DNA of 38,778 bases, taken from Candidatus Kryptoniota bacterium. Its GTDB lineage: Bacteria > Bacteroidota > Ignavibacteria > Kryptoniales > JAKASW01. The first letter of the stretch is position 1, and every line of letters starts with the position of its first letter. The notes under the pieces are model-generated. The model had not been told where the DNA came from. It ran no database searches and worked only from the letters and a program-made list of their open reading frames with translations. The stretch is from the NCBI GenBank assembly GCA_024641705.1, contig JAHECO010000036.1, forward strand, positions 1-38,778, written 5' to 3'. Position numbers and translations under genes: made by a program. Below are positions 7,249 through 38,778 of this stretch, in pieces.

Positions 7249-7299
7249 GAAGCCGAAGGACTCCCGCGCCTTCTTCCCTCCGATTTCCTTCGTTGATTT

Positions 7300-7401
7300 T
7301 CACTCGCAGCAGCTCTTCTTCGTCTTCTTTTTTACCGCCCTGAAGATCACCGCTCCGGCAAAGAGAGCGAGAACCGACATGAACACGATCTCGCCGGTCA
7401 T
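7300..7401 (-). CDS. FeoB-associated Cys-rich small membrane protein (33 aa)
   Basis: Very short gene read on the minus strand. The 33-residue product starts MTGEIVFMSVLALFAGAVIF, a single membrane segment, continues with a basic stretch (RAVKKKTKK) and ends SCCE. Small proteins with one membrane helix, a Lys/Arg patch and a terminal Cys cluster directly after feoB are the 'FeoB-associated Cys-rich membrane protein' family, thought to assist ferrous iron uptake. Its ATG overlaps the feoB stop codon (ATGA, 7398-7401), which strongly supports translation and co-expression. It is shorter than many family members and has only two cysteines, so the assignment rests on position plus architecture. 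Confidence 0.75.
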   Translation of the reverse strand: MTGEIVFMSVLALFAGAVIFRAVKKKTKKSCCE

Positions 7402-9470
7402 AACAGGCTCCCCACCTGGTACACGACGAATGCCACTCCCCATGCCATGACGAAACTATACGCGAGGAAGAGGAAGGCAAATTTCTTTCCTCCCTCTCGT
7501 GCCATGACCGCTACGGTCGCGAGGCATGAAGTATACAGGAGAAGAAAGATCATGAACGAAAGTGCGGACGCCGGCGTGAAACTCGACCTGATCACGGACC
7601 GGAGGCCCTGGTCTCCCTCGTCGGCCTGAAGAGTCTGAATAGATGGGGTGAGCAGCGACATGAAGCTTTCCTTGGTAGCGGAGGCGAAGCCCTTCATCTG
7701 TACTTCGAGTGCCGGGAGGAAATGGAATTCCGTGTTCTTCTTCTGCACGTCGACGGAATAAATGGTCCCCATCGAGCTGAGGACGATCTCTCTTGCGAGG
7801 AAAGCGGGGATGAGCGAAGTCGATATCCGCCAATCCTTGATCCCTATCGGTTGGAGGACCGGCGTAATAGCCTTACCAACGTATGCGGCGGCGCTGTCGG
7901 ACTGGCTCTTCAAATTCGGCGGGGTATTGAGCAGAACCCAGATTACGACGGACGCCGCGAAAATCACGGTGCCTGCCCTGTACATGAAGCTCTTCACCTG
8001 CACCCAGGCGATCTGCAAAACGGTGCGCAGCCTGGGCACGCGGTAGGGAGGAAGCTCCATCACGAAGTGCGAAAGCCGCCCGCGATAGGCCGTCTTCCGC
8101 AGAAAGAAGGCGGTCAACAGGCCGATGGCGATCCCGAGAAGGTAGAGCGAGAATATCACCATGGCCGGGTGCACAAAGAACATCACCGCGAAGAACGAGA
8201 ACACCACAAGCCTCGCCGGGCAGCTCATGAACGGGATCATCGCCATGACCAGGAGTTTGTCGCGCTTGTTCTCAAGAGTCCTGGTCGCCATGACCGCCGG
8301 CACGTTGCAGCCGAATCCGAGAAGAAGCGGTATCATCCCCTTGCCGTGCAGCCCGAGCCTGTGCATGAAGCGGTCCATGATGAACGCGATCCTCGGCATA
8401 TAACCCGACATCTCCAGGAGGGCGATAAGAAAGTAGATCATTCCGATGAGTGGGACGAAGGTGATCACGAACCCGACGCCGCCGACGATTGCCTGGGAGA
8501 AGAACTGCGGGAGCCACTTCCCGGCGCCTATGTCGGAAAGGAGCGAAAGGACGAGCGGCGAGAAGAAGTTGTCTATAAGACCCTGCGTCCAGTTCATGAA
8601 CGGGGTAGAAAAATCGAAGGATATCTTGAAAAGGAGGAACATCACCAGGAGGAATATGAAGAAGCCGAGGATCGGGTGGAGGAGGACCTTGTCTATCCTG
8701 TCCGTGAGATCCCTCGCGGTCGGCTTTCTCCTTTTGAACGACTCGTTGTAAAATCCGTGGGCGAATGCGTACCTTTCGTCCTTGATGATGCTGTTGATGT
8801 CTTTTCTGAAGAACTTCTCGAGACTGGCTTTCTCTTCATTCCGGCCGTTCCCCTCGATGAGCATCTTTAGGAGGGCACGCTTGTCCATCTTCCCGTCATG
8901 GTTCCGTTTCTCCAGCGAGCCGAGCGCCTGCTCGACCTGTTCGCTGTACCGGACGGTCTTCGGTGGGCGGTGTGCTTCCGCACTGGCGACTATTGCGTCC
9001 AGGAGTTCCTTGACGCCGTCGCCGTTCCTGCCGTTGGTCTTGATGACCGGGATGTCGAGGAGCTCGCCGGTATGGATGCTGTCGACTTGGATGCCGAGCT
9101 TCTTTGCTTCGTCGGACATGTTCAGGGCGATTATCATCGGCCTTTCAAGTTCGAGCAGCTCGGTTGTTAGAAGCAGGTCCCGCTCGGCGTTCGTAGTTTC
9201 AATTACGTCGACTATGACGTCGGGCTTCTCTTCGGATATGAAATTATAGGCGATCCACTCGTCTTCGGAGATCGGTTCGAGAGTGTAAATGCCGGGGAGG
9301 TCGATGAAGTGGATGTCGAAGCCGTTGTAACTCAGGAACCCCTCTCTCTTCTCTACCGTCACGCCGGCCCAGTTGCCCACCTTCAGGTTGGTCTTTGCCG
9401 CGTGGTTCAGCAGTGTGGTCTTGCCGACGTTCGGATTGCCGGCGAGCGCCACCTTTATGGTCCGAGTCAT
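7398..9470 (-). CDS. feoB: Ferrous iron transport protein B
   Basis: 690-residue inner-membrane Fe(II) transporter with an N-terminal GTPase. G motifs: G1 GNPNVGKT (11-18), G3 DLPG (57-60), G4 NMSD (117-120). After a linker, the membrane part begins near residue 265 (ILGFFIFLLVMFLLF) and includes the Cys-containing gate GFGCNVPA and MIPFMSCPARL, both typical of FeoB. Length is at the short end of the family. The start overlaps feoA by 4 bp (ATGA, 9467-9470) and the stop overlaps the small Cys-rich gene, so feoA, feoB and the 33-aa gene form one tightly coupled unit downstream of fur. Confidence 0.96.
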   Translation of the reverse strand: MTRTIKVALAGNPNVGKTTLLNHAAKTNLKVGNWAGVTVEKREGFLSYNGFDIHFIDLPGIYTLEPISEDEWIAYNFISEEKPDVIVDVIETTNAERDLLLTTELLELERPMIIALNMSDEAKKLGIQVDSIHTGELLDIPVIKTNGRNGDGVKELLDAIVASAEAHRPPKTVRYSEQVEQALGSLEKRNHDGKMDKRALLKMLIEGNGRNEEKASLEKFFRKDINSIIKDERYAFAHGFYNESFKRRKPTARDLTDRIDKVLLHPILGFFIFLLVMFLLFKISFDFSTPFMNWTQGLIDNFFSPLVLSLLSDIGAGKWLPQFFSQAIVGGVGFVITFVPLIGMIYFLIALLEMSGYMPRIAFIMDRFMHRLGLHGKGMIPLLLGFGCNVPAVMATRTLENKRDKLLVMAMIPFMSCPARLVVFSFFAVMFFVHPAMVIFSLYLLGIAIGLLTAFFLRKTAYRGRLSHFVMELPPYRVPRLRTVLQIAWVQVKSFMYRAGTVIFAASVVIWVLLNTPPNLKSQSDSAAAYVGKAITPVLQPIGIKDWRISTSLIPAFLAREIVLSSMGTIYSVDVQKKNTEFHFLPALEVQMKGFASATKESFMSLLTPSIQTLQADEGDQGLRSVIRSSFTPASALSFMIFLLLYTSCLATVAVMAREGGKKFAFLFLAYSFVMAWGVAFVVYQVGSLL

Positions 9471-9763
9471 TTCACCTCGATGTTCCTTGCGACGTCCGAA
9501 GTTATCACGATCCTGGAATTGCTCGTCTTCACGACGATGCCCCTTCCGAGTTTCTGCATGATCGTGATCTTCTTCCCGCGCCTGAGGCCCATCGCCTCGA
9601 TCTTTTTCATCGCGTCGTTTTCGACGAGAAAATCTACGATGTGGGCGACTTCGCCCACTTTCAGGTCTTTGAGGGTGATCCTACTGCCAACCTCTCTCGC
9701 CGCAGTTGTCGCGGCTGCTTCCGTTGTCGCTTCCCTTGCGGGGCGTTCTCTGAAAATCGTCAT
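9467..9763 (-). CDS. feoA: Ferrous iron transport protein A (SH3-like)
   Basis: 98-residue cytosolic protein with a FeoA SH3-like barrel from about residue 28: ITLKDLKVGEVAHIVDF ... MKKIEAMGLRRGKKITI ... IVVKTSNSRIVITSDVARNI. FeoA binds and modulates FeoB. The first ~26 residues (Ala/Thr/Arg/Glu-rich) are an unusual extension and may mean that a later start is used, although no better start is obvious. It lies 21 bp after fur and overlaps feoB by 4 bp. Confidence 0.92.
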   Translation of the reverse strand: MTIFRERPAREATTEAAATTAAREVGSRITLKDLKVGEVAHIVDFLVENDAMKKIEAMGLRRGKKITIMQKLGRGIVVKTSNSRIVITSDVARNIEVK

Positions 9764-9784
9764 GTCGGTAATGCAGATCTTTCT

Positions 9785-10219
9785 CTACTGGCCGTTCTTG
9801 CAGTCCGGGCAGATGCCGAAGATCTGGTGGGAATGGCTGATAAGCGTGAATTTGAATTTCTTTGCAATCGCCTGCTGGGCCTGTTCGACGCTGTCGTCGA
9901 CAAACTCCACGATCTTCCCGCATTTGACACAGAGGAGATGGTCATGGTGGGACCTGCCGAATGCCTTTTCGTACCTGGATCCGTGATCTTTCAGGCGCGT
10001 CTTGAAGACGAGCTCGCACTCCTCGAGGATGTCGAGGGTGTTGTACACGGTAGCCCTTGATACTTTGCTACCTCCCTTCTTCAAGGTCAGGAAAAGCTCG
10101 TCGGCGTCGAAGTGGCCGTTTGTCGCCATCACCGCATCGAGGACTTCGAAGCGCTCCGGCGTGACACGGTAATTTTCTTCTCGCAAATAGTCTTCAAATT
10201 TCTGCTTTGCCGTTTCCAT
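9785..10219 (-). CDS. fur: Fur-family metalloregulator
   Basis: 144-residue repressor with an N-terminal winged helix (RVTPERFEVLDAVMATNGHFDADELFLTL ... VSRATVYNTLDILEECELV) and a C-terminal metal-binding dimerisation domain (SHHDHLLCVKCGKIVEF, GICPDC). Both CX2C pairs of the structural zinc site are present. The acidic residue after GKIV is Glu, as in iron-sensing Fur, where peroxide-sensing PerR of Bacillus has Asp; this favours an iron sensor. I start at the ATG at 10219, preceded by AAGGG, and not at the in-frame ATG at 10309, because the operator-like repeat at 10232-10250 would then be inside the gene. Directly upstream of feoAB, so it should control its own operon. Confidence 0.92.
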   Translation of the reverse strand: METAKQKFEDYLREENYRVTPERFEVLDAVMATNGHFDADELFLTLKKGGSKVSRATVYNTLDILEECELVFKTRLKDHGSRYEKAFGRSHHDHLLCVKCGKIVEFVDDSVEQAQQAIAKKFKFTLISHSHQIFGICPDCKNGQ

Positions 10220-10231
10220 CGTACCCTTACT

Positions 10232-10250
10232 GTTTAAATTAAGTCTAAAT
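10232..10250. promoter_or_regulatory. Fur operator-like inverted repeat at the fur-feoAB promoter
   Basis: GTTTAAA-TTAAG-TCTAAAT, a 7-5-7 imperfect dyad 13 bp upstream of the fur start. One half (TCTAAAT) is identical, and the other matches at five of seven positions, to the perfect repeat at 11136-11154. It lies directly downstream of the proposed -10, a repressing position. The binding protein is inferred from gene context. Confidence 0.6.
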
Positions 10251-10279
10251 AAGTTACGCCCAGCGACGGTAGTTTTCAA
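10251..10279 (-). promoter_or_regulatory. Possible promoter of the fur-feoA-feoB operon
   Basis: On the minus strand, TTGAAA (10274-10279) is 17 bp from TAACTT (10251-10256). The -35 is near consensus and the -10 weak. Its placement immediately before the operator-like repeat supports it. Confidence 0.4.
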
Positions 10280-10357
10280 GTCTTCTTCTATCCTCTCAAT
10301 CGCCATCAAATGTCTTCCCTGGACCCTCTTCGGCGTGATCGCCGGGTGGCACGGTTT

Positions 10358-11086
10358 TTACAAGTCAAAACTCAGTGTTGTGCAGAAGTTCACAGCGTTC
10401 GAATTCTTGAGAATCCCGAATGTGGCACCCGAGGTAATATCGAACCATGGAGTTGCCAATGAAACCGTCGGCCCGGCTCCCGTTCCGCCAAAGTCTTCAT
10501 CGACAGCCTCCTCGCCGGCAAGCGTAGCGAATGACTCCACGCCCACCCTGAAGCCGTCGAGTAATTCATAGCTGAATCCCGCGCTGAATTCAGGAGTGAG
10601 TTCGCTCCCTTTGCCGAATTCATACTCTGCAATTCCGTTGATCGTTCCATTGAGACGCCCGATATCTTTGGAGAGGATCAATTTGACTTCAGCGCGATTG
10701 GCATTTTTGAAATTCCAGTTGCGCTCGTATTCCACGTACAACATCGGATCTACCGGCAATTCATTTTCCTGTGCGAGTTTGTACAGGGCTTCCAACATGA
10801 AAGATTCAGAGGACAACCTGCCTTCGGGGAAGTCGCGACCGAAAACCTGGTACAGTCCGATCTGGAACCTATCGCTTACTCCGTACTCGAGCTCGAACTG
10901 CTGGATGAAAGAGTGGGAGTTGTTGGAAAGCGTCGGCGTTGTGAAGAAGGAGTTGCTCTCGAGCTCAAACTCGCCTCTGGCGGTTGTTCCGTAAGGATAA
11001 GTCCAGACGTAATATTTGTCCTGAGCTGCTGAAGTTGAGACGCTTGCAATCGTCAACGAAAAGATGAGAAACAGTAATAACTTCAT
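10358..11086 (-). CDS. Putative outer-membrane beta-barrel protein, candidate iron-regulated
   Basis: 242-residue protein with a signal peptide (MKLLLFLIFSLTIASVSTSA, then A-Q). The mature part has alternating amphipathic strands typical of small outer-membrane barrels: FIQQFELEYGVSDRFQIGLY, LYVEYERNWNF, INGIAEYEFGK, FSAGFSYELLDGFRVGVES. It ends in TTLSFDL, a barrel-like final strand. I do not recognise a named family with certainty; the shape is like DUF3187/transporter-type short porins. GGAG lies 5 nt before the ATG. A consensus-like promoter and a perfect Fur-type repeat lie upstream, so repression by the adjacent Fur and a role in metal acquisition are inferred. It is separated from fur by 138 bp. 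Confidence 0.7.
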   Translation of the reverse strand: MKLLLFLIFSLTIASVSTSAAQDKYYVWTYPYGTTARGEFELESNSFFTTPTLSNNSHSFIQQFELEYGVSDRFQIGLYQVFGRDFPEGRLSSESFMLEALYKLAQENELPVDPMLYVEYERNWNFKNANRAEVKLILSKDIGRLNGTINGIAEYEFGKGSELTPEFSAGFSYELLDGFRVGVESFATLAGEEAVDEDFGGTGAGPTVSLATPWFDITSGATFGILKNSNAVNFCTTLSFDL

Positions 11087-11135
11087 ACTGGCTCCGCAGG
11101 CATTTTGTGCTTGAAAGAATCAAGCCGTTATTGCT

Positions 11136-11154
11136 ATTTAGACCACATCTAAAT
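11136..11154. promoter_or_regulatory. Fur operator-like perfect inverted repeat upstream of the barrel protein
   Basis: ATTTAGA-CCACA-TCTAAAT, a perfect 7-5-7 dyad 50 bp upstream of the barrel-protein start. It overlaps the edge of the -10 and the expected transcription start. A related repeat precedes fur. It resembles neither the E. coli Fur box core (GATAAT hexamers) nor the Bacillus PerR box. Confidence 0.65.
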
Positions 11155-11179
11155 TATAACTCTTTTCCTAATTTGTCAA
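11153..11179 (-). promoter_or_regulatory. Sigma-70-like promoter of the barrel protein gene
   Basis: On the minus strand, consensus TTGACA (11174-11179) and consensus TATAAT (11153-11158) are 15 bp apart. The spacing is shorter than the ideal 17 bp, which may weaken the promoter. The repeat at 11136-11154 covers its downstream edge. Confidence 0.55.
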
Positions 11180-11240
11180 GGCCTCATGCACGGAGTTCGC
11201 TGATGGTTTTGGGCGTGGAGTTCCGTAAATTTCCTTACGT

Positions 11241-12140
11241 ATGAGCGAAAACGCACTCAGGATGCTGACCCCGCAGTTCATCTCGCAGCTCTCGAACATG
11301 GAGCTACGGGCCAGGCTGATCGTAGAAGGATTTCTTATCGGAATGCATCGCAGCCCGTATCACGGGTTCAGCGTGGAGTTCGCAGAGCATCGGCAGTATT
11401 TTCCGGGCGACGACATCGGGAACATAGACTGGAAAGTGTTCGGGCGCAGCGACCGGCTCTACATTAAACAGTACGAAGAGGAGACGAACCTCAAAGCCTA
11501 TATCCTCATCGATGCGAGCAACTCCATGGGCTTCAAGCGAGACGGCAGCGTCAGTAAGCTCGAATACTCCGCATATCTTGCCGCGGGGCTGATCTACCTG
11601 ATGATGAAGCAGCAGGACGCAACCGGACTCGCGGTCTATGACGAATCTGTGCGGCGCTTTTATGAGCCCCACCTGACATACTCCTACATGAAGCTCCTGC
11701 TGACAGAGCTGTCTGGCCTGCAGCCCAACGCCAGAACTTCCACGGCAAGCGCGCTGTCCACCCTGGCAGAGAGGATAAAGAGGCGCGGGCTGATCATCGT
11801 GATTAGCGATTTCCTGGACGATACGAAAAATGTCATCACGGCGCTCAAACATTTCAGGCACAGGAAAAACGAGGTTATCGCTTTCCAGGTGCTCGACGAT
11901 TCCGAGCTGAAACTCGATTTCCCGGCCGACGCCGTATTTACGGACATGGAGACTGGAGAGCGGATTTCGACGCAGGTGTCGGCAATCAGGTCGGCATACA
12001 GCAAGAGCATCGACAGGTTCGTGCGAGACCTTAAGAGCAGGTGTTTCGAGAACGATATCGACTACTCCCTCCTCAGCACCTCCACTCCTTTCGACAAGGC
12101 GTTGACCGCATACCTGACGAGAAGGAAGAAGATGTTTTGA
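11241..12140 (+). CDS. DUF58 domain protein (vWA-like)
   Basis: 299-residue protein with the DUF58 hallmark FPGDDIGNIDWKVFGRSDRLYIKQYEEE (residues ~54-82, quoted in part: GNIDWKVFGRSDRLYIKQYE), followed by a von Willebrand A-like domain with MIDAS-type DASNSMG. Members are cytosolic and usually sit beside a MoxR AAA+ ATPase, acting with it in assembly or activation of envelope or metabolic complexes. No MoxR gene is next to this one; it lies between the divergent iron module and rmuC. No clear ribosome-binding site is seen before the ATG (GGAG is ~20 nt away), so the start is somewhat uncertain. Confidence 0.88.
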   Translation: MSENALRMLTPQFISQLSNMELRARLIVEGFLIGMHRSPYHGFSVEFAEHRQYFPGDDIGNIDWKVFGRSDRLYIKQYEEETNLKAYILIDASNSMGFKRDGSVSKLEYSAYLAAGLIYLMMKQQDATGLAVYDESVRRFYEPHLTYSYMKLLLTELSGLQPNARTSTASALSTLAERIKRRGLIIVISDFLDDTKNVITALKHFRHRKNEVIAFQVLDDSELKLDFPADAVFTDMETGERISTQVSAIRSAYSKSIDRFVRDLKSRCFENDIDYSLLSTSTPFDKALTAYLTRRKKMF

Positions 12141-12143
12141 AGA

Positions 12144-12167
12144 GGCGCAAAGGCACAGAGGCACAAA
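12144..12167. repeat. Three tandem 8-bp repeats
   Basis: GGCGCAAA, GGCACAGA, GGCACAAA in direct succession just after the DUF58 stop codon. Noncoding. Confidence 0.6.
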
Positions 12168-12244
12168 GTGAACGTGTTCAGGGTGGCTGACGACGGAGAT
12201 TTTGGGCGAGAGCGCCGGTAATTCTAATTCATTGAGGGAGTTGC

Positions 12245-13564
12245 ATGGAAACAATAATTCTTGCGGCGATGGCAGTAGTGATCGTCGTGCTGGTCTTTTT
12301 TCTCGTCCAGTTCAGAAACTCGTCGATGAAGCAGCAGTCGTCATCGGACCAGACGTTGCAGCTTTTCACACTTTTCAAATCGGACGTCGAGTCAGCCGTA
12401 AAATCCGTCGCCGAGACGACACGCTCCAACAGCGAATCGATGGCCAGCACTCTCCAGCTGGTGAGCAATTCTCTCTCGAAGAGCATGGAGGAAAACCGGG
12501 CCGGAACGAACTCTCAGGTCGAGCAGCTCGCGGGGCAGATGTCGCAGCTTACCGCACTGATCGGCAAGCAGGTTGAACAGCTTACGAGCTCGGTCGACCA
12601 GCGGCTCGGCCAGTCGATGGCGGCTACCGACAGCCAGGTCAGACAGATGGCCCAGCAGATATCCGAACTCTCGGGCGTGGTCGGGAAGCAGGTGGAAAGT
12701 CTGCGAGGATCCGTCGAACAGAGGCTCTCCAGCTTCGAAGGGCAGCTGGGCGGACAGCTATCGGAGGCCAACAAGCTCTTCTCCTCGCTGAAGCAGGACT
12801 TCGGCGAGCTGAAGGAATCGAGCAACAACATGCTCGAGATAGGGAAGCAGATCAACGAATTACAAAACATCCTCAACTCCCCGAAGCTGCGCGGGAACCT
12901 TGGCGAGACGCTCCTGGAAGAACTGATAAAGCAGGTCATTCCTCAGGGGTTCTACGAGTTCCAGTATTCCTTCCGGGACGGTTCGAAAGTGGACGCAATA
13001 ATAAGGACCTCGGAGAGGATTATCCCGATCGATTCGAAATTCCCCAAGGATGAATTCCAGAGATACGTCGAGGCGACAACCGACGCCGAGAAGAATACGG
13101 CCCTCAACAGGTTCTCGAGCGTAGTCAAGAAGCAGATCGACGACATAGCGGAGAAGTACATCAGGCCCGCGGAAAACACGTTCGATTTCGCGATCATGTT
13201 CATTCCGTCGGAGAGCATGTACTACGAGCTCCTGATCTCGGACAACGACGAGAACAGCGCCTACCGTTACGCGATGAAGAAGCACGTCGTTCCCGCATCG
13301 CCCAACAGCTTCTACGCATACATCCAGGCGATCGCGATAGGTCTGAAAGGAATGCAGATAGAGAAGAACGCGCAGCGCGTCCGGGACCAGCTCGCGCAGC
13401 TCGAGAATTCGCTCGCGAAGTTCGTCGACAGCTTCGACACGCTCGGGACTCATCTTAAGAACGCCTCGAACAAGTACGGCGAGTCGCACGAGGCGCTCGG
13501 ACGGTTCAGGGAGAGGCTGGAAGGAATTGCGGACATCGACGAGGAGCCGCCGAAGATAGAGTAA
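12245..13564 (+). CDS. rmuC: DNA recombination protein RmuC
   Basis: 439 residues. Residues ~4-23 form an N-terminal membrane anchor (IILAAMAVVIVVLVFFLV). Then follows a long Ser/Gln/Glu-rich coiled coil (~30-200) with repeated 'SQVEQLAGQMSQLTALIGKQ'-like segments, then the RmuC domain (~205-400) with PKLRGNLGETLLEELIKQV, DAIIRT, IPIDSKFPKDEF and FAIMFIPSESMYYELL. RmuC limits DNA inversions and has a predicted PD-(D/E)XK-like fold. GAGGGAG precedes the ATG. The stop TAA overlaps the ATG of the AddB-like gene (TAATG at 13562-13566), so the two are translationally coupled. Confidence 0.93.
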   Translation: METIILAAMAVVIVVLVFFLVQFRNSSMKQQSSSDQTLQLFTLFKSDVESAVKSVAETTRSNSESMASTLQLVSNSLSKSMEENRAGTNSQVEQLAGQMSQLTALIGKQVEQLTSSVDQRLGQSMAATDSQVRQMAQQISELSGVVGKQVESLRGSVEQRLSSFEGQLGGQLSEANKLFSSLKQDFGELKESSNNMLEIGKQINELQNILNSPKLRGNLGETLLEELIKQVIPQGFYEFQYSFRDGSKVDAIIRTSERIIPIDSKFPKDEFQRYVEATTDAEKNTALNRFSSVVKKQIDDIAEKYIRPAENTFDFAIMFIPSESMYYELLISDNDENSAYRYAMKKHVVPASPNSFYAYIQAIAIGLKGMQIEKNAQRVRDQLAQLENSLAKFVDSFDTLGTHLKNASNKYGESHEALGRFRERLEGIADIDEEPPKIE

Positions 13565-16500
13565 TGGCGATTATCCTTACGCGGAATTTTGAGGCGGCGC
13601 CGGCCGCCGATTTCGTCGAGGCTGTCAGCAAACGCGCTGCCGCGGCTGCGGGGACCGGGCAATACGATTTCATCTACATCGTTCCGACGCGCAGGCGGGT
13701 CCGCGAGCTCCAGCGCGAGCTGGTGACCGACGTAACGTTCGGGAAACTTCCCCTCTACACACTCGAGCTGTTCGCGCACGAATTGTTCGCGCTGACGCCT
13801 TCCGCCAGGAGGGTGATCTCCCCGTCGATGCAGGGGATGATCGTCAGCGAGATACTGTCGCAGGGTGACTTCAGGTTCTTCAGGTACGCGTCGTACAGGC
13901 CCGGCGCGAGAAAGGGGGTCGCGCCGATAGGTACCATCAAGAAGATCGTGGACCAGATCGGGTACCTGAGAGAAAACGGGATCACGCCGGACGACTACGG
14001 GACAATGGTGACGGCAGCTGAGGAATCGGAGCGGCTGAAGCTTGCCGAATTCCACAAGATTTATTCCGAATACGAGAATCGGCTCGGCACAGGACTGACG
14101 GACAGTGCCGGCCTGTTGTCGCTTGTGAACGCCGGGCTCTCGGCGTCGCGCGAGCCGCTCGAGCGACGTCTTCCGCGGGAGTTTTCATTCTTCGTCGAGG
14201 GATTTTACAATTTTAAGAAGCCGGAGCTGGAGTTCCTCCGGCTCGTCTCCTCGAACAAGCGCTTCTCGTTCCTCATCAAGCTGGACTGCGAAGAGTCCAA
14301 CGAGTATCTCTTCCGTACCATGATCTCGACTTCGCGTGAGCTCAGGGTGAGGGGATTCAAGATCGAGACGCCGGAACCTGAAAGGAAACCCGGTGCTGAG
14401 CCGTCGGACTTTCTCGCGAAGTACTTGTTTGCCGATAGTATCCCGCCGTCGAGACTCGACTTCAGAAAGAAAATAGTCGTCGCGGGAGTAAGGGATACGC
14501 TGAGAGAGGCGGAGTTCGTCGCGGAAAAGATCAAAGAGATAATGAAGGATGACCCGCGGCAACAGCTCGACCGGATCTGCGTCGCTTCGTACCTTCCGCA
14601 GAATTATTCCAGGATATTCCGCGAAGTCTTCCGGAAGTACCGTATACCCGCAAACATAACGGACAGGTATACGCTGGAAAGCAACAGCGTCGTGAACGCG
14701 ATACTGTCGTTTATCGACGTGAAAGTCGCCGATTACGAGCGCACGGCATTGTTGAGAGCCGTCACCAACAGCATGCTCAGAGTGGCCGACGGGTTCACGC
14801 CGAGCAGGGCAGGAAGTATCATCTATAATGCGGCCGGGCTTTGCAGGTTCGAGAGAGGATTGAAGGCGTTCAAAGGGGCGATCGAATCCCGACTGGAGTT
14901 CATGAGCAGGCTGGAGGGCGCGGACAACAACGGCATGGACTCGGCGAAAGATGTCGAGTCACTCAGAAGCGCCGTGCGGATACTCTCCTCGATAGAGACC
15001 AAGCTATCCGGCTTCGGCGGAGAGCTATCGCCGGGGGAGTTCAGGAAAGCGGTAAGGTCTCTCGTCGCCCGCCTGTGGATATACGAGAATATTATCAGGG
15101 TCGACATACCTGGTATATCCACGGAGCTTGTCGAGAGGGACGCGCGGGCACTGGCTTCGTTCTTCGAGGTGCTCGACGAAGTCGTGGGAGTGGAAGAGCA
15201 AAGAGGAAGCGGAAGCCTCCCCGTGGAACTCTGGATGGAAAATCTGAGGTCGGCGCTTTCGCTTACACGCTACAATATCCGCCAGAAATACGGCTACGGC
15301 GTCTATGTCACCTCACTGGAAGAAATCAGGGGACTGGAGTTTGATCACCTCTTCATCGTCGGTTTGAACGAAGGAGAGCTGCCGGCGAAATACGATCCGG
15401 AGATTTTCCTGCCTCTGCGATCGCAGGAGGAGAACCGCGAGACCGAGCCGTACCTGCAGAGGCACTTGTTCTACCAGGCGGTCAGCTCCTTCCGGAAGAG
15501 ACTGTTCCTGATCCATCCTCTCCAGCGTGAGGAGGTCCGGTTTGCAAGGTCGTCTTTTATAGATGCCGTCACGTCCATACTCGATTGCGAGGTTCACGAC
15601 GAGGCGACAGGCGGAACTATGAACATCTACAACGCTCATCAGCTGGTAGAATCCGAGGCGGTGCTTTCAGGTGCGCGGGACAAGATCGCCGATGAAGCTT
15701 CCGTCTCGAAATTGCTCCCTCCCAACCTTGCCAGATGCATGGCCGCCGAAGCCGCCAGGTACCGCGACGACAGGGAGAGCGAGTTTGCGGGAAAGATAAC
15801 CGATTCGGAACTGGCGAGCTCGCTGGACGAGAAGCTCGGCTCGAGAATCTTTTCCGCGGCGCAGCTCGAATCTCTTTCGAGGTGCGGCTTCCAGTTTTTT
15901 GCGCGGAGGGTACTCCAGATCGCGGAGGTACCGGATATAGAAACTTCGCTAAGCTCCATCGAGCGCGGGGCGGTGCTGCATCAGATACTTTACCGTTTCT
16001 ACACCGAGCTCTCGAAGAGGAACCGGCTTGCCGGCGCGGCGTCCGAACTCGATTTGCTCCTTTCCGTCGCGCGGGAGGTCCTGGACGGGCTCGGCGTGGG
16101 CGCAGAGGGTACTTTCGGGAGAGACCTGTTCGAAATCGAAAGGGAAACCATACTTGGGACGCAGGATTTTCCGGGGACTCTCCAGCTATTCCTGACCAAG
16201 GTACAGTCGAAGCTGACCGGGTACGGCTTCAGGCCGGAGAAGTTCGAGGTCGGCTTCGGGATGAAGGGCGGAAGCGGCGATGAAATCGCACCGGTCGAGA
16301 TTGGCGGAGTTGCGGTGCAGGGGAAGATCGACAGGATCGATTCGAACACGAACGGGCTGACCATCTTCGATTATAAAACGTCGTCGAGAAGCGCCTCTCA
16401 CCAGGACGTAATCCGGGACAAGATTAGCCCGCAGCTTCTCGTATACATGAACGCTCTCAGCAGGTTGTCCAGGGACGAAGGAACATCGAAAGGTGTTGCC

Positions 16501-16842
16501 GGTGCCGCGTTCATTTCCATCAATAGGCAGCGGCTGGCTGATGCGGACGTCGGGGGGGAGCTGATCGAGTTCATCGTCCGCGACGAGAATGGCGAACTCC
16601 GGTTCAACAGGAGCTACGAAAGCACCAAGAGGACGCCGGGTGCCGCCGGCTATCCGCAGAACATCGGTGACCTGCTGAGACAGACCGAGGAGTTCGTCAA
16701 AGGAAAGGTTGCAGAAGTGCGTTCCGGTCGATTCAATCTCACGCGATTTCCGCAGGAGAAGGTTTGCACTTACTGCCCGTACTCAGAAGCATGCAGGATA
16801 GCTCTGACGGGTGAGGGTGTCGAGAGCGAAAACGAGGGCTGA
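13564..16842 (+). CDS. addB: AddB-like PD-(D/E)XK nuclease with inactive helicase fold and Fe-S cysteines
   Basis: 1092 residues, partner of the AddA-like protein at 3652. The N-terminus reads YIVPTRRRVRELQREL where active helicases have a Walker A, as in AddB proteins lacking ATPase activity. Mid-protein signatures include FFVEGFYNFKKPELEFLRLV and VTSLEEIRGLEFDHLFIVGL. The C-terminal nuclease has GKIDRID Asp923 and FDYKTS Asp936/Lys938, flanked by C774 and the CX2CX5C set C1068, C1071, C1077, the usual AddB 4Fe-4S pattern. It overlaps rmuC by 1 bp. The gene lies about 6.3 kb from addA, unlike the adjacent addBA order in Firmicutes. Chi recognition by this subunit is known for AddB and only inferred here. 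Confidence 0.85.
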   Translation: MAIILTRNFEAAPAADFVEAVSKRAAAAAGTGQYDFIYIVPTRRRVRELQRELVTDVTFGKLPLYTLELFAHELFALTPSARRVISPSMQGMIVSEILSQGDFRFFRYASYRPGARKGVAPIGTIKKIVDQIGYLRENGITPDDYGTMVTAAEESERLKLAEFHKIYSEYENRLGTGLTDSAGLLSLVNAGLSASREPLERRLPREFSFFVEGFYNFKKPELEFLRLVSSNKRFSFLIKLDCEESNEYLFRTMISTSRELRVRGFKIETPEPERKPGAEPSDFLAKYLFADSIPPSRLDFRKKIVVAGVRDTLREAEFVAEKIKEIMKDDPRQQLDRICVASYLPQNYSRIFREVFRKYRIPANITDRYTLESNSVVNAILSFIDVKVADYERTALLRAVTNSMLRVADGFTPSRAGSIIYNAAGLCRFERGLKAFKGAIESRLEFMSRLEGADNNGMDSAKDVESLRSAVRILSSIETKLSGFGGELSPGEFRKAVRSLVARLWIYENIIRVDIPGISTELVERDARALASFFEVLDEVVGVEEQRGSGSLPVELWMENLRSALSLTRYNIRQKYGYGVYVTSLEEIRGLEFDHLFIVGLNEGELPAKYDPEIFLPLRSQEENRETEPYLQRHLFYQAVSSFRKRLFLIHPLQREEVRFARSSFIDAVTSILDCEVHDEATGGTMNIYNAHQLVESEAVLSGARDKIADEASVSKLLPPNLARCMAAEAARYRDDRESEFAGKITDSELASSLDEKLGSRIFSAAQLESLSRCGFQFFARRVLQIAEVPDIETSLSSIERGAVLHQILYRFYTELSKRNRLAGAASELDLLLSVAREVLDGLGVGAEGTFGRDLFEIERETILGTQDFPGTLQLFLTKVQSKLTGYGFRPEKFEVGFGMKGGSGDEIAPVEIGGVAVQGKIDRIDSNTNGLTIFDYKTSSRSASHQDVIRDKISPQLLVYMNALSRLSRDEGTSKGVAGAAFISINRQRLADADVGGELIEFIVRDENGELRFNRSYESTKRTPGAAGYPQNIGDLLRQTEEFVKGKVAEVRSGRFNLTRFPQEKVCTYCPYSEACRIALTGEGVESENEG

Positions 16843-33219: not shown

Positions 33220-33843
33220 TCAAAACAAGATTACATCGTCCTGCTCACGGAGAACTTCATCAGAGATCGCTTCTCTAACCTTCCGACGATATGCATATCT
33301 GAGCAGACGCGCGATGTTTATTCGTTGAGATAGGATAAGGTTCCGGAAGATCCTCGTGAATTCGGCGCAGTCCATCAAGTTGAGCCGGTCCTTCTCAAGG
33401 AATAAGTCGACCATCAACTTCTCGAAAGTGGCATATGAGTTTTCGGTCGGTTCCTCACTTACGGACTGACGGATGACTACCGTGTCAGCTGATGGCTCAA
33501 AGTATTTTGCGACCTCGTCCTTCCTTGGGTTGACGAAGACCTTGTAGCCTGAATCCTTCAGGAACTCGCCGACCGAAGGCATGGAATCTGCGTCGGTGTA
33601 AAGAACGATCGTGAACCGGGACATAATGTGGTGAGCAAGCGACTTCAGCTGCTCCGTGCTCCAAATCGAGAACTCAAGGAACGGGAACCGTTTCTTGATG
33701 TCGCTGATCAGCTTTTGAACGGGTTCCATTGGCAACGACGGTGCCTGGCTGACGGTCGAATACCAGCCGCGTCCGGCATCAAAGAGTTTGCCGTCCCTTT
33801 TGAGGTTATATAGATACTGGTTGACGGTGGTAGCTGGCAGCTG
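33220..33843 (-). pseudogene. DUF6577-like protein lacking its N-terminus (fused remnant)
   Basis: Recognisable from LPATTVNQYLYNLKRDGKL, the second half of an N-terminal winged helix, through EFSIWSTEQLKSLAHHIMS, GYKVFVNPRKDEVAKYF, TFEKLMVDLFLEKDRL to INIARLLRYAYRRK. This matches the DUF6577 family as I remember it, whose members have a winged-helix start and look antitoxin-like. About 30-40 N-terminal residues that would complete the winged helix are absent. The frame stays open upstream to an ATG at 33966, but those residues are only the shifted reading of the AbiEi-like gene. So the gene is truncated by a junction at about 33840, unless the fusion is an assembly or sequencing artefact. 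Confidence 0.65.
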
Positions 33844-34076
33844 ACATAGGATGCCCTGACCATACGATTCGCAACAAGGAATGGATGCGGCTTTACCTTT
33901 CGGTACGGTGGCGCGAGCGCATAGAGTCCACGCCGAATCTGGTAAATTCGACCAGCCTTCGTCCACCGGGAAAGCTGGAGGATCACATCCTTTGGCTCTG
34001 CATTTCCGGCCAGTAGAAATCCCGTCTCAAAGACCGGTTCATCGTCGACAATATTGATGAGCCGTTCGAATTCCAT
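33708..34076 (-). pseudogene. AbiEi-like antitoxin winged-helix gene, truncated after ~79 residues
   Basis: The product starts MEFERLINIVDDEPVFETGF and has an AbiEi-type winged helix (VILQLSRWTKAGRIYQIRRG, then LYALAPPYRKVKPHPFLVAN, RMVRASYVS). In intact relatives SYVS is followed by 'L.SAL..' and a further ~120 residues. Here homology stops at about 33840 and the frame continues as 43 meaningless residues that are DUF6577-coding DNA read in another frame. The minus-strand start lies 5 bp from the small dyad ATAAC-TTAGC-GTTAT (34081-34095), and the gene diverges from the primase-helicase gene. Whether the N-terminal domain alone still binds DNA is unknown. Confidence 0.6.
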
Positions 34077-34080
34077 AGCA

Positions 34081-34095
34081 ATAACTTAGCGTTAT
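34081..34095. promoter_or_regulatory. Small inverted repeat between the divergent island genes
   Basis: ATAAC-TTAGC-GTTAT, 5-5-5, immediately upstream of the AbiEi-like start. A direct repeat GTTAAATTC occurs at 34120-34128 and 34149-34157, nearer the primase-helicase gene. Either could be an operator for the adjacent DNA-binding protein; evidence is position only. Confidence 0.3.
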
Positions 34096-34173
34096 CGACA
34101 TATTATTGCAACCAATTATGTTAAATTCACATTCTTCCTAAAGAAAACGTTAAATTCCAAACGGACTGCCGGT

Positions 34174-37143
34174 ATGACCACGGACAAGAAAAATATCCTG
34201 TCGCTTCTGAGTAAGTATCAGGCTTTGCTAATCGAGAACGATAAGCTGAGGGCGGAGGTCGAGACGCTCAAAGTCCAGCTCACGGCTCTCGGTCATCCAA
34301 ACGACTTAGCAATAGGGAAAGTTGAAACGGCGAGTGCCGGAAGTATATCCGGAATTCCGAACGAGGCTCTAACCGACGCCGTCAGGACGAATTCGGATCG
34401 AAAAGTGAATCAGCAGAGCGGGTCTGAAGATAAGATAGAGCTCTTTATGTCGCTCTTTAAAGGAAGAACCGATGTCTATGCAAAGAGATGGCAAAATTCA
34501 AAAGGGAAATCCGGATTCTCGCCTGCCTGTCTCAATGAATGGAAGCCTGGTATCTGCAACAAACCGCGAATCAAATGCTACGAGTGCAGTAGCAAGTCTT
34601 TCGAGATTTTGAATGACAGAGTCGTTGAAGAGCATCTCAAGGGAAAGATTGTAGCCGGACTATATCCTATGTGCCATGATGACACCTGTTACTTGCTGGC
34701 AATCGACTTCGACGATGACGGTTGGCAAAAAGACATTTCGGTGTTGAGACACGTATGCTCCGAATTGAACATCCCAGTTGCGGCGGAACGGTCGCGTTCA
34801 GGCAACGGCGCTCACCTCTGGTTCTTCTTTCAAGATCCGATACCGGCAGCTTCGGCCCGAAAGTTCGGATCGGCCCTGCTGACCTATTCGATGAACAAGA
34901 GACATGAAATCGGGTTCAAGTCCTATGACAGATTCTTTCCCAATCAGGACACTATGCCGAAAGGAGGATTCGGCAACCTGATTGCACTTCCCTTGCAGAA
35001 GGAACCGCGGAAGAAGGAGAACAGCGTTTTCATCGATGAGCATTTTGAGCAGTATCTCGACCAGTGGGATTTCTTAAGTTCGGTGAGGAGACTATCAGAA
35101 GATGAAGTCGGTTCATTGACGAAAACACTCTCTATCTTTGGAGCTGAAAATGATCTTGGGATATTGAGAAAGGATGAAAGCGAGACAAAAAGACCATGGC
35201 AGAGGGTACCGGCAATCTCGTTGAAGAAGGATGATTTTCCGGAGAAACCGAGCGTTGTAAAGGCAAACATGATTTATGTTTTGAAGGAAGGTATTTCCCA
35301 AAGGGGATTGGACGCGTTAAAACGGTTGGCGGCATTTAAGAACCCGGAATTTTATAAAGCTCAGGCGATGCGTTTGCCGATTTACAACAAGCCGAGAATT
35401 ATATCTTGCTCCGATGAGACGGACGAGTATCTATGCCTTCCCCGGGGCTGTCTGCCGGAGGTCCAGGCCTTATTGAGCAAACTAAATCTCGAACCGATCA
35501 TCTCAGATGAAACCAATCGTGGCAGGAGTATCGATATCGAGTTTAATGGGACGCTGAGAGATGAACAGCTTGCGGCACTAAGTGAGTTGATGAAATATGA
35601 CAACGGCGTGTTGGCTGCTGCAACGGCATTCGGCAAAACTGTAGTAGCTGCAAAACTGATAGCAGAGAGGAAAACGAGCACACTCGTATTAGTCCACAGG
35701 AAACAACTGCTTTTGCAATGGGTAAAGAAGCTATCAGAGTTCCTAACTATCAAAGAAGTAGTCCCTCAACCGGAGAAGAAGCGCGGGAGACCGAAGCGAC
35801 TCTCACTAATAGGCCAAATTGGTGGAGGCAGAGATAGTCCAACCGGTATAGTCGATGTCGGAATCATGCAATCTCTTTACAGAGACAATGAGGTCTCCGA
35901 GCGGGTGAGGAATTATGGTATGGTCATTCTGGATGAGTGCCACCACGTCCCAGCCTTCAGTTTTGAGCAGGTTCTCAAGAACGTTCACGCCCGATACGTA
36001 TACGGGTTGACTGCGACGCCGGTGAGGTTAGACGGGCATCATCCAATTATATTCATGCACTGCGGACCGATCAGATACAAAGCGGATGCAAAGACCCAGT
36101 TGGAGCAGTCGCCGTTCGATCACTACGTGATCCCAAGATTTACCAGTTTCATAATTCCTGTTGATAGTAACGTATCGGTTTCGGACAGAAAAGAACCCGG
36201 CATCCAAGAGATCTATTCCGAGTTAGCGGCCAGCGAAATGCGGAATAGGCTCATAGCCAATGACGTAATAGCGAATCATGAGGCTGGCAGGAGTTCGCTT
36301 GTGCTGACCGAAAGGACGTCCCATGTTGAAACACTTGCAGGCATGATAAGCGAGAGGGTAGCGGACGTAATTCCGCTGACAGGCAAATACGGGACCAGGC
36401 GAACCAGGGAAGCCCTGCAAAAGATTTCCGATGCACCTCAACGAAATCCTTTGACCATAGTAGCAACGGGGAAATATATAGGTGAAGGTTTTGATGAGCC
36501 ACGCCTCGATACCCTGTTCCTGGCCATGCCAATCTCCTGGAAAGGAACTTTGCAGCAATACGTAGGCAGGTTACACCGAACACACGAAAACAAGAAAGAG
36601 GTTCAAGTTTACGACTATGTCGATACGCATGTACGAATGTTTGAAAAGATGTACAACAAGCGACTCAGCGGATATGCTTCATTTGGATATAAAACCAAAG
36701 GTGACGGGGCGGCGCCGGAAGCCGCGAATTTCATTTTCGACACGAGCAGTTTCTATCCGGTTTACTGCGGCGACATTGATAATGCATACGGGAACATTTT
36801 CATAATCAGTCCCTTCGTTTTGAGAAGGCGGATAATGAACTTCCGTGAGCATTTAAGAAAGGCGATTGATATGAACATAAAGGTGACGATGATGACGAGG
36901 CCATGCGAGGACTTCAAGGAGAAGGATAGGCCGCAATTGCGTGGGACCTTAGATATTTTGCGAAACGACGGTGTCAATCTGTTATTCAAATCAGGAGTAC
37001 ATCAGAAATTTGCAGTTATAGATGAACGTATTGTTTGGTATGGGAGCATAAACCTTCTGAGTTTCGGCACTGCTGAGGAGACCATGATGAGGCTGGAGAG
37101 CTCCAACATTGCAAGCGAGTTGTTGAAGAGCGTTGGGCTTTGA
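34174..37143 (+). CDS. TOTE-type conflict protein: AEP primase - SF2 helicase - HKD nuclease fusion
   Basis: 989 residues. A short N-terminal coiled coil (~8-40) is followed by a Cys cluster (C119, C128, C135, C138) in the GYSPACLNEW-type segment (here SGFSPACLNEW), then an archaeo-eukaryotic primase domain: LAIDFDDDGW (Asp178, Asp180), SRSGNGAHLWFF (His214), NLIALPLQ. Residues ~455-830 are an SF2 helicase: Walker A ATAFGKT (Lys488), DECHH (Asp587), YGLTATPVR, QQYVGRLHR. The C-terminal part has one HKD motif HQKFAVID (His943, Lys945, Asp950), a phospholipase D-like nuclease. The primase-helicase layout matches proteins named 'TOTE conflict system archaeo-eukaryotic primase domain'. One HKD motif per chain implies dimerisation if active. 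The A/T-rich composition differs from the core region, suggesting transfer. Role in anti-element defence is inferred. Confidence 0.88.
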   Translation: MTTDKKNILSLLSKYQALLIENDKLRAEVETLKVQLTALGHPNDLAIGKVETASAGSISGIPNEALTDAVRTNSDRKVNQQSGSEDKIELFMSLFKGRTDVYAKRWQNSKGKSGFSPACLNEWKPGICNKPRIKCYECSSKSFEILNDRVVEEHLKGKIVAGLYPMCHDDTCYLLAIDFDDDGWQKDISVLRHVCSELNIPVAAERSRSGNGAHLWFFFQDPIPAASARKFGSALLTYSMNKRHEIGFKSYDRFFPNQDTMPKGGFGNLIALPLQKEPRKKENSVFIDEHFEQYLDQWDFLSSVRRLSEDEVGSLTKTLSIFGAENDLGILRKDESETKRPWQRVPAISLKKDDFPEKPSVVKANMIYVLKEGISQRGLDALKRLAAFKNPEFYKAQAMRLPIYNKPRIISCSDETDEYLCLPRGCLPEVQALLSKLNLEPIISDETNRGRSIDIEFNGTLRDEQLAALSELMKYDNGVLAAATAFGKTVVAAKLIAERKTSTLVLVHRKQLLLQWVKKLSEFLTIKEVVPQPEKKRGRPKRLSLIGQIGGGRDSPTGIVDVGIMQSLYRDNEVSERVRNYGMVILDECHHVPAFSFEQVLKNVHARYVYGLTATPVRLDGHHPIIFMHCGPIRYKADAKTQLEQSPFDHYVIPRFTSFIIPVDSNVSVSDRKEPGIQEIYSELAASEMRNRLIANDVIANHEAGRSSLVLTERTSHVETLAGMISERVADVIPLTGKYGTRRTREALQKISDAPQRNPLTIVATGKYIGEGFDEPRLDTLFLAMPISWKGTLQQYVGRLHRTHENKKEVQVYDYVDTHVRMFEKMYNKRLSGYASFGYKTKGDGAAPEAANFIFDTSSFYPVYCGDIDNAYGNIFIISPFVLRRRIMNFREHLRKAIDMNIKVTMMTRPCEDFKEKDRPQLRGTLDILRNDGVNLLFKSGVHQKFAVIDERIVWYGSINLLSFGTAEETMMRLESSNIASELLKSVGL

Positions 37144-37281: not shown

Positions 37282-37881
37282 ATGACAAACAGGGAAATAG
37301 TCAAATATTTCAAGTCAAACGGCGGCTATGCTCGCATGAGCGAGCTCAAGGCAGCTGGGATTCACACCAGGGCCATAAGAGACCTCTATGATTCCGGGAC
37401 GATCGCCAAGGTGAAACCCGGCCTGTATCGGCTTGCCAGCATAGCACCCAGCAGCGAGTCGGGCATGGTTGAAATCTGTCTCGCTATGCCGAAAGCCGTT
37501 GTCTGCCTCGCGTCAGCTCTCTCATTCCACGGACTCACGACATTCATACCAACAAAGATAAGTGTGGCGATACCGAGGGACTCAAAGCCCAATAGAATTG
37601 AGTCGACTCCGACTGAGATTTTCTACTTCTCGCCCGAACAACACAAGGCTGGCATTAAGCAGCACAAGACGCGAACGGGAGCGATAAGAATCTATGGGCC
37701 GGAGAAAACAGTCTGCGATATGTTCCGGTATAGGAACAAAATCGGCATCGACCTTGCCGCTGAAGGCCTGAGAGAATACCTGCGCAACTCCAAGAGGGAC
37801 GTCAAGGCTCTCATGAAATTTGCAGAGATATGCAGGGTGAAGCAGATTGTATCGCAGTACACCAAGGCGATTCTCGGATGA
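37282..37881 (+). CDS. AbiEi-family antitoxin of a type IV toxin-antitoxin system
   Basis: 199 residues. An N-terminal winged-helix domain (EIVKYFKSNGGYARMSELKA ... AIRDLYDSGTIAKVKPGLYRLA) is followed by the AbiEi C-terminal region (VCLASALSFHGLTTFIP, RIYGPEKTVCDMFRYRNKIG, AAEGLREYL). AbiEi proteins repress their operon and counteract the AbiEii nucleotidyltransferase toxin without direct complex formation. Full length for the family. ATGA overlap (37878-37881) with the toxin gene is the usual AbiE arrangement. Confidence 0.9.
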   Translation: MTNREIVKYFKSNGGYARMSELKAAGIHTRAIRDLYDSGTIAKVKPGLYRLASIAPSSESGMVEICLAMPKAVVCLASALSFHGLTTFIPTKISVAIPRDSKPNRIESTPTEIFYFSPEQHKAGIKQHKTRTGAIRIYGPEKTVCDMFRYRNKIGIDLAAEGLREYLRNSKRDVKALMKFAEICRVKQIVSQYTKAILG

Positions 37882-38345
37882 AGCAGCCTGCCAGAAACAT
37901 TCCAGCCTCCGTTCTTGCCCGTCTCAAAAACCTGGCAGACAAAGACAAAATTGATTTCAACTTCCTGCTATTGAGATACCTTCAGGAAAGGTTGATCGCC
38001 CGGGTTGCTATCTCTAAATACTCAAGCAAATTTCTGCTCAAGGGTGGACTCCTCCTGGTCTCCTTTGACGTTGAAAAGGCAAGACCTACGAGAGATATCG
38101 ACTTTCTTGCAAGAGGAATTCAGAATCAGCCAGAGGCTCTTAGAACGATATTCTCCGAAATTGTGACAAGCGAATTGGCTGACGGTGTGCAATTCGTTTC
38201 GGAATCTATTAAAGTTGAGGTTATCGGAGAGCTGGCGGAGTACAATGGAGTCTCTTATAACCCGCATTGCGACGATGCTCTCAAAGCAAGAATAATGGTA
38301 TTGAGCAAAGATGTGAGGGTTCTTTTCTTCGCGAACAGATTGTAA
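37878..38345 (+). pseudogene. AbiEii-like nucleotidyltransferase toxin, C-terminally truncated
   Basis: 155 residues starting at the ATG overlapping the antitoxin stop; the frame upstream to 37830 is antitoxin shadow. It contains the N-terminal family signatures FLLKGGLLL and KARPTRDIDFLARG (nucleotidyltransferase motif region), then EVIGELAEYNGV. Family members are usually about 280-300 residues and continue after this point with a 'RLQIDIGFGD'-type acidic motif. Here the protein instead ends with an unrelated ~30-residue tail (HCDDALKARIMVLSKDVRVL) and no AbiEii-like coding follows. The missing acidic residue and C-terminal half make it probably non-toxic. A novel short variant is the alternative. 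Confidence 0.7.
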
Positions 38346-38660
38346 TTATTGTATATGAGAATCAAGGGGCGATTCGGACGGTATGAGACAAATACGTCCG
38401 CCGTGATGCCGTTGGCGACGAAGCGACTAGAGCCACTAACGCAGGCAGACAAGCAGTCTGGATTTTAGCTCAGTGAGTTTCTTGTCTGGTCTTGCTTAAA
38501 GTCGGTGAAGACGACTGACCATGTGGCATATTTGTGGAATAAGCCCACGAGTCAACGCTCGTCTGAGAAGAAGGAAAGAATGAATCCTGCAATCTGTGAT
38601 GCATTGCAGGATTTTGGTGTCAGGCTGGTAGGATCGAACCTGTGGCGCCCTGCTTATCTA
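38346..38660. other. 315-bp noncoding stretch with several stem-loops
   Basis: No convincing gene. Inverted repeats CAGAC-AAGCA-GTCTG (near 38447-38461) and ACGAG-N6-CTCGT (near 38549), plus the perfect 11-bp hairpin annotated separately. Near 38616-38647 the minus strand contains GGTTCGATCC and ends in CACCA, like a tRNA 3' part. Confidence 0.5.
38583..38615 (+). terminator. Perfect 11-bp hairpin followed by TTTT
   Basis: AATCCTGCAAT (38583-38593) pairs perfectly with ATTGCAGGATT (38603-38613) around a 9-nt loop, with T residues continuing to 38615. It could terminate the AbiE transcript. Confidence 0.5.
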
Positions 38661-38778
38661 GGAGCCTGTCGGAGAACCATGATAATGGCATGAGGGTTGC
38701 GTAATTTTGGGATGAAAGAGAAAGGCAGAGATGAGAAAGTTTAGAGAATACAACATGGATCAGATGTTACTGTTGCAG
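38661..38778 (+). mobile_element. Left end of an IS1182-family-like insertion sequence (cut by window end)
   Basis: GGAGCCTGTCGGAGAACC at 38661-38678 resembles terminal inverted repeats of IS1182-type elements. It is followed 52 bp later by a transposase start whose sequence fits that family. The exact left boundary and target duplication cannot be fixed without the right end. Confidence 0.55.
38731..38778 (+). CDS. IS1182-family transposase, N-terminal 16 residues (partial)
   Basis: MRKFREYNMDQMLLLQ and then the window ends. The opening 'M+KFREYN.+Q..LLP'-like pattern is typical of IS1182-family DDE transposases. AAAGG lies ~6 nt upstream. Only 16 residues are visible, so the family call rests on this signature and the adjacent terminal-repeat-like sequence. 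Confidence 0.6.
   Translation, partial: MRKFREYNMDQMLLLQ

Follow-up and report, generated by a model that had tools for sequence, protein, structure and literature searches.

A single gene on the forward strand (positions 34174–37143) encodes a 989-residue protein in which an archaeo-eukaryotic primase (AEP), an SF2 helicase and an HKD nuclease follow one another in one chain. The window, that is, the whole stretch of 38,778 nt of DNA that was analyzed, contains one copy of this fusion gene, and no second gene of its kind was found in the genome from which the window comes. The gene stands alone and belongs to a family already described in the literature, that of the non-CRISPR Prim-Pol-helicases of mobile elements, and the HKD-fused proteins are a little-described branch of these known mobile AEP-helicase proteins. 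We favor, with a probability of about 0.45, the reading that the gene encodes a stand-alone, horizontally transferred conflict enzyme attacking foreign DNA, and prefer this to a role in the maintenance of mobile elements. In the HKD clade, one transferable gene combines a predicted polymerizing with a predicted degrading activity, and nucleases are exchanged among the sister lineages. Fusions of a Prim-Pol with a helicase are frequent in mobile elements of bacteria and occur in several hundred E. coli genomes, and our literature search turned up no tested function for them. Deciding between host defense and help for mobile elements would assign a role to a widespread gene family.

Domains and conserved residues of the fusion protein

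The gene starts with ATG and runs as one unbroken frame of 989 codons; among 200 shuffles of the island, the longest stop-free run was 195 codons. The earlier note, made from the sequence alone, had described a Cys cluster, an AEP primase, an SF2 helicase and an HKD nuclease in one chain, and this description is borne out by Pfam domains as well as by structure matches. The N-terminus (residues 2–38, positions 34177–34287, forward strand) is predicted as a long helix or coiled coil with a pLDDT of about 66–88 and is a candidate dimerization element; its HALZ match is weak and below the cut-off. The primase domain (residues 86–313, positions 34429–35112, forward strand) matches the Pfam family AEP-TOTE (PF22548) with an E-value of 4e-103 and 344 bits against a cut-off of 27, covering positions 1–228 of the 230 in the profile, and is further marked by a CAPP Prim-Pol structure match and by invariant residues. 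It is followed by an XPB/UvsW-like SF2 helicase (residues 356–840, positions 35239–36693, forward strand), recognized by sequence and structure matches, with the Walker A lysine K488 and a DECH motif at residues 587–590; within it, Pfam reports ResIII at residues 460–618 and Helicase_C, under its cut-off, at residues 698–803. The C-terminus (residues 848–989, positions 36715–37140, forward strand) is a single HKD (PLD-type) nuclease domain with a NucT structure match and a PLDc_2 match at residues 866–984 (35 bits, cut-off 27).

Residue conservation was read from 33 aligned homologues that represent several phyla. The Cys cluster C119/C128/C135/C138, which precedes the catalytic motifs of the primase, is present in all 33, as are D178/D180, H214, G487-K488-T489, D587-E588-C589-H590 and D950, while H943 is found in 32 and K945 in 31 of the homologues. 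The key residues of the primase, helicase and nuclease named in the earlier note are thus intact, and their numbering was correct. Motif I (D178xD180) and motif II (S..GxH214) of the AEP superfamily are invariant, and so is D252, the candidate for motif III, although the exact residue is uncertain since the pairwise alignment is one position off; with this uncertainty for motif III, all that characterizes the superfamily (motif I DxD, motif II sxH, motif III hD and the fold) is found in the protein. In the nuclease, the complete signature HxK(x)4D(x)6GSxN is present (H943, K945, D950, G957, S958, N960), and the PLD fold was matched as well.

An AlphaFold2 model computed from the alignment of the 33 homologues has a mean pLDDT of 69.6 and a pTM of 0.52, and the relative placement of its domains is unreliable. 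Residues 82–322 match the CRISPR-associated Prim-Pol of Marinitoga (7nqf) with a Z-score of 20.6 and an rmsd of 3.3 over 200 residues, and a Foldseek run with the model also matched the CAPP fold; a primase fold, the lack of which would have spoken against the earlier note, is therefore supported. Residues 356–825 match archaeal XPB (Z about 22) and UvsW of phage T4; the rmsd to XPB of 7.6 or more implies a different arrangement of the two helicase lobes in the model and in archaeal XPB. XPB, UvsW and RadD are the best matches of the helicase part in structure and sequence. The rows obtained with VIA-align were mostly helicases, and the lack of other folds among them carries no meaning. Because the XPB match begins at residue 356, ahead of the ATPase motifs, residues from about 356 to 455 probably form an accessory DNA-binding domain. 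Residues 848–989 match the Helicobacter nuclease NucT (6ehi) with a Z-score of 15.9 and an rmsd of 2.3 over 134 residues. NucT-like enzymes carry one HKD motif per chain, and two chains form one active site. Since the fusion protein likewise has a single HKD motif, two of its chains would, by analogy, be expected to form one active site, and the helix of residues 2–38 is the obvious candidate for holding them together. This one protein is probably able to start, unwind and cut DNA.

The locus, its selection and its recent transfer

The fusion gene lies in an A/T-rich island, as had been claimed before: its GC content is 0.477 (47.7%), compared with 0.561 (56.1%) for positions 1–33150 of the window, where no window of the length of the gene falls below 0.520 (52.0%). 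Its GC3 is 0.55, compared with 0.68–0.79 in other large genes. A divergent intergenic region of 97 bp (34077–34173) separates it from an AbiEi gene on the reverse strand, and the spacing is shared by the genomes G003, G006 and G008; in these and in G000, the fusion gene is divergent from the AbiEi gene throughout, always at about 97 bp. Only the N-terminal part of this AbiEi gene is left (33834–34076, reverse strand; PDLC02241 AbiEi, 1–81), the rest having been removed by a rearrangement: the AbiEi alignments to L086, L087, L088, L090 and L093 all end exactly at 33834. There it is fused out of frame to a DUF6577 (AbiEi-like) gene (33220–33833, reverse strand; PF20217, E-value 1e-43), a junction that suggests recombination between AbiE-type loci. 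On the other side of the fusion gene follow a second AbiEi antitoxin-like gene of 199 aa (37282–37881, forward strand; PDLC02265, 4–197 of 198, E-value 1e-63) and an AbiEii toxin-like ORF (37830–38345, forward strand; PDLC02288, 7–126 of 294) that is truncated near residue 145 of about 290. The view that the flanking toxin-antitoxin (TA) genes are broken thus holds for the left AbiEi gene, cut at 33834, and for the right AbiEii gene, cut at about half its length, but not for the right AbiEi gene, which is full length.

The contig ends at position 38778, 1.6 kb downstream of the fusion gene, inside repeated sequence. Positions 38658–38778 recur three times elsewhere in the genome with 99–100% identity and are probably part of an insertion sequence; the start of the terminal ORF in this segment resembles IS1182-type transposases, as judged by eye only. 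The fusion gene lies outside any dense recognized defense island in the window. Further to the left, positions 3376–16842 contain helicase/nuclease genes of the AddA-like and AddB-like types, which are separated by FeoB and an RmuC gene.

Comparison with the orthologues in G007, G008 and G003 yielded omega values of 0.18, 0.16 and 0.13 for the fusion gene, and values of 0.11–0.16 for its nuclease domain. The gene is under purifying selection within the genus. Two genes, FeoB and that of the AddA-like protein, served as controls for transfer. For the same three genomes, dS is 0.31, 0.35 and 0.61 for the fusion gene, compared with 1.97, 2.69 and 2.38 for FeoB, and the protein identity within the genus is 85–89% for the fusion protein, compared with 63–68% for the AddA-like protein. 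Therefore, the fusion gene moved recently between these species of the genus. A unit of about 4.15 kb, composed of a Phd-ParE pair and the fusion gene, shows 98% identity in Desulforamulus putei and Paradesulfitobacterium ferrireducens (L038:1927–6078 and L039:3688–7838), members of two Peptococcaceae genera, where its flanks are unrelated. A self-mobile unit with terminal repeats was also considered and was rejected, since no convincing terminal inverted repeats were found in the island of the window or in the 4.15-kb unit. When an empty insertion site was looked for, the left flank of the island matched only dispersed sorting-domain repeats and, in G005, the TonB gene.

Relatives with different nucleases or none

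A scan of 84,980 genomes yielded 71 loci in Bacteroidota, 'Deltaproteobacteria', Bacillota, Planctomycetota and one archaeon of the Thermoplasmata. In a tree built by a quick method on the AEP-helicase part, the HKD-bearing proteins form essentially one clade, which crosses several phyla; the only row in it that lacks a nuclease, L055, breaks off where its contig ends. Another clade has a C-terminal DUF559 domain, a PD-(D/E)XK-type nuclease, and the remaining relatives are nuclease-less. DUF559 takes the place of HKD in L058, L059, L060, L061 and L175, four of which form this clade in the tree, L061 not being included there. The predicted C-terminal nuclease thus varies on one AEP-helicase chassis, being HKD, DUF559 or absent. 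In a Muribaculaceae genome, a divergent relative with HKD (L065:7359–10856) has an N-terminal GNAT acetyltransferase domain in the same frame.

The possibility of a phage replication gene was rejected: among the matches listed, tblastn with the whole protein matched phages in the helicase part only. The AEP domain alone matched 14 phage records with 24–37% identity, none of them with high similarity. In IMG/VR, a single-protein query found no close relative, and a query with the alignment found six loci with 44–48% identity and a putative viral origin; these loci contain RhuM, AbiEii, AlbA_2, RtcB-RF1 and integrases. At L177:5503–10220, an RtcB ligase gene and a gene with an RF-1 domain (PrfH-like) lie directly upstream of a nuclease-less relative.

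The neighborhoods of the HKD clade were surveyed for about 44 loci, with 143 genes within a distance of two genes. The raw count includes 10 Fic genes and several genes each for HipA, ParE, Phd, AlbA_2 or AAA_14/DUF4143, and the SoFic model and several candidate-system models of PADLOC match such neighbors. No neighbor is constant at these loci, and the adjacent genes are in many cases encoded on the other strand. Fic was rejected as an obligate partner because it is present at only 10 of the about 44 loci, in both orientations. AbiE genes recur beside homologues in distant lineages, and on an Arcobacter plasmid (L124:6990–10082) only 6 bp separate the end of an AbiEii gene from a distant relative that follows it, an independent AbiE association. 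As raw counts, the TA-type neighbors of the HKD clade can only be suggestive.

The nearest published architecture is that of the CAPP_A type 3 Prim-Pol-helicases and of related non-CRISPR proteins of mobile elements. Like CAPPs of class A type 3, the fusion protein has a related AEP domain and, behind it in the same chain, a helicase, an arrangement that also defines the CAPP_A type 3-like non-CRISPR Prim-Pol-helicases; it reached 8e-92 with the PADLOC PrimPol model and 1e-29 with NF040561, the latter being below the cut-off of that model. Unlike CAPPs, it has an HKD nuclease, and a Cys cluster precedes its catalytic motifs. No Cas gene, Cas1/Cas2 or CRISPR array was found beside the fusion gene within the window, where the flanks are AbiE-type and the contig ends 1.6 kb downstream. 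Related CAPPs are DNA-dependent polymerases and primases, and their polymerase activity was abolished when the two aspartates of motif I, which correspond to D178/D180 of the fusion protein, were changed (Zabrady et al., 2021, PMC8211822).

The AEP plus SF2 helicase chassis is shared with an E. coli protein annotated as 'TOTE conflict system archaeo-eukaryotic primase domain-containing protein' and encoded in O157-type and other islands. The identity to this relative is about 42–43% over residues 33/84–845, but it has no nuclease domain and its setting is an island with integrase, YfjI and Gp2 genes. Most of a relative is present in 681 of 5426 complete E. coli genomes. From its island position, we take the E. 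coli protein to belong probably to the Z1568-like family. SauUSI likewise combines a PLD-type nuclease with an SF2 helicase in one chain, and the helicase of the fusion protein matches 7clg; unlike the fusion protein, however, SauUSI-type NTP-dependent restriction enzymes have no primase domain. The Z1568-like family is named in PMC5862659. Our literature search found no paper in which TOTE primases are named together with helicases, no phage assay or other test of the primase-helicase-HKD architecture, and no description of the HKD clade; two likely sources were outside the search, so that an earlier mention is possible.

Possible roles as a conflict enzyme or a tool of mobile elements

The conflict role is favored because alternative nucleases occur on one chassis, because the gene travels with TA-type genes, and because it is under selection. 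We infer a sequence of dimerization, loading of the translocase, strand opening, composite HKD cutting and priming on exposed strands. The N-terminal helix would hold a dimer together, and the XPB/UvsW-like translocase would load it on foreign or actively replicating DNA and open that DNA. The HKD site, completed by two chains, could then cut the exposed strand, and the Prim-Pol domain might write short primers on the single strand that the enzyme itself exposes. Priming would serve to turn single-stranded DNA of the invader into a duplex that can be cut, or to have that DNA marked and stalled. Such an enzyme would need no fixed partner and would travel in accessory loci with varied TA-type genes. 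An extended version, in which a single protein confers immunity by priming, the Prim-Pol making invader single strands double-stranded or primer-marked and the translocase with a swappable HKD or PD-(D/E)XK nuclease destroying them, is, in our view, unlikely. No mechanism for the discrimination of self from foreign DNA is visible in the fusion protein. It also counts against a conflict role that no partner is constant, that the gene is not part of a dense recognized defense island here, and that the nuclease-less relatives live in mobile elements, so that the chassis may be a tool of such elements.

The main competitor, which we regard as somewhat unlikely, is that the protein is an element-maintenance factor that aids replication, fork restart or establishment of mobile elements or islands, the HKD domain processing intermediates, and that the gene is a selfish accessory gene. 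Nuclease-less forms are present on many plasmids; some adjoin tyrosine recombinases and another adjoins Ti-type transfer genes, some follow TniB/TniQ in a Tn7-like element, another is flanked by a recombinase and a Tn3 transposase, and those of E. coli occupy islands that also contain integrase, YfjI and inovirus-type Gp2 genes. Mobile and transposable elements are also the typical setting reported for the non-CRISPR relatives of CAPPs that have helicases (Zabrady et al., 2021, PMC8211822). However, a search of 72,556 plasmid records gave no match to the HKD-bearing forms, genes for replication, an integrase or transfer are not adjacent to the fusion gene in the window, and a nuclease fused to a replication factor would be unusual. 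The earlier note had named a consistent location of homologues in replication modules rather than defense islands as evidence against its reading; such a location applies to the nuclease-less relatives (plasmids, a Tn3-type and a Tn7-like element, and E. coli islands, with genes of replication type alongside), but not to the HKD clade, which is mostly chromosomal and has TA-type neighbors.

A repair or replication-restart enzyme, in which an XPB/RadD/UvsW-like helicase, a re-priming Prim-Pol and a trimming nuclease would serve damage tolerance, is quite improbable. The best matches of the helicase part would fit such a role, and Prim-Pols re-prime stalled forks. The distribution, however, is patchy, with full copies in 5 of the 13 genomes of the genus, decayed fragments elsewhere in the genus, and the AEP-TOTE domain in 25 of 296 genomes of the phylum, and both the high transfer rate and the TA-type neighbors are unlike those of core repair genes.

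TOTE stands for TPR, OB, TBP and Effector (PMC12458937). By this definition, the fusion gene is not a TOTE conflict system, because no match to TBP (PF00352) was found in the window genome, which is 100% complete (controls matched in four archaea), and because no TPR-OB neighbor recurs: there is no TPR-OB (cold-shock) partner next to the fusion gene, where the adjoining genes are AbiE-type, and elsewhere TPR occurs in 2 of the 143 neighbors. Of the earlier label 'TOTE-type', the domain name stands, as the AEP domain belongs to the Pfam family named after these systems, but the conflict system does not, since a single gene is present here, with neither TBP nor constant partner genes. Despite the Pfam family, it is thus very unlikely that the protein is the effector of a true TOTE system with TPR-OB and TBP partners in trans or past the contig end; the complete genome and the about 44 other HKD-clade loci that lack a constant partner argue against it. 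A decaying, functionless remnant is equally hard to credit, for although gene fragments exist in G006 (residues 1–408, then a transposase-like ORF, by eye), G007 (residues 215–430) and G009 (residues 936–989) and the TA genes alongside are broken, the gene has a full-length open frame, all catalytic residues and an omega of 0.13–0.18.

A SNF2-family helicase was rejected as an obligate partner, since the window genome contains no close homologue of it. Within the genus, its gene starts 40 bp after the fusion gene in G009 and also lies beside the decayed copies in G006, G007 and G009; it is found at L088:5577–8252 as well as in L091, L092 and L093 and matches DpdE/ZorD models, so that the two genes may form a two-gene unit within the genus.
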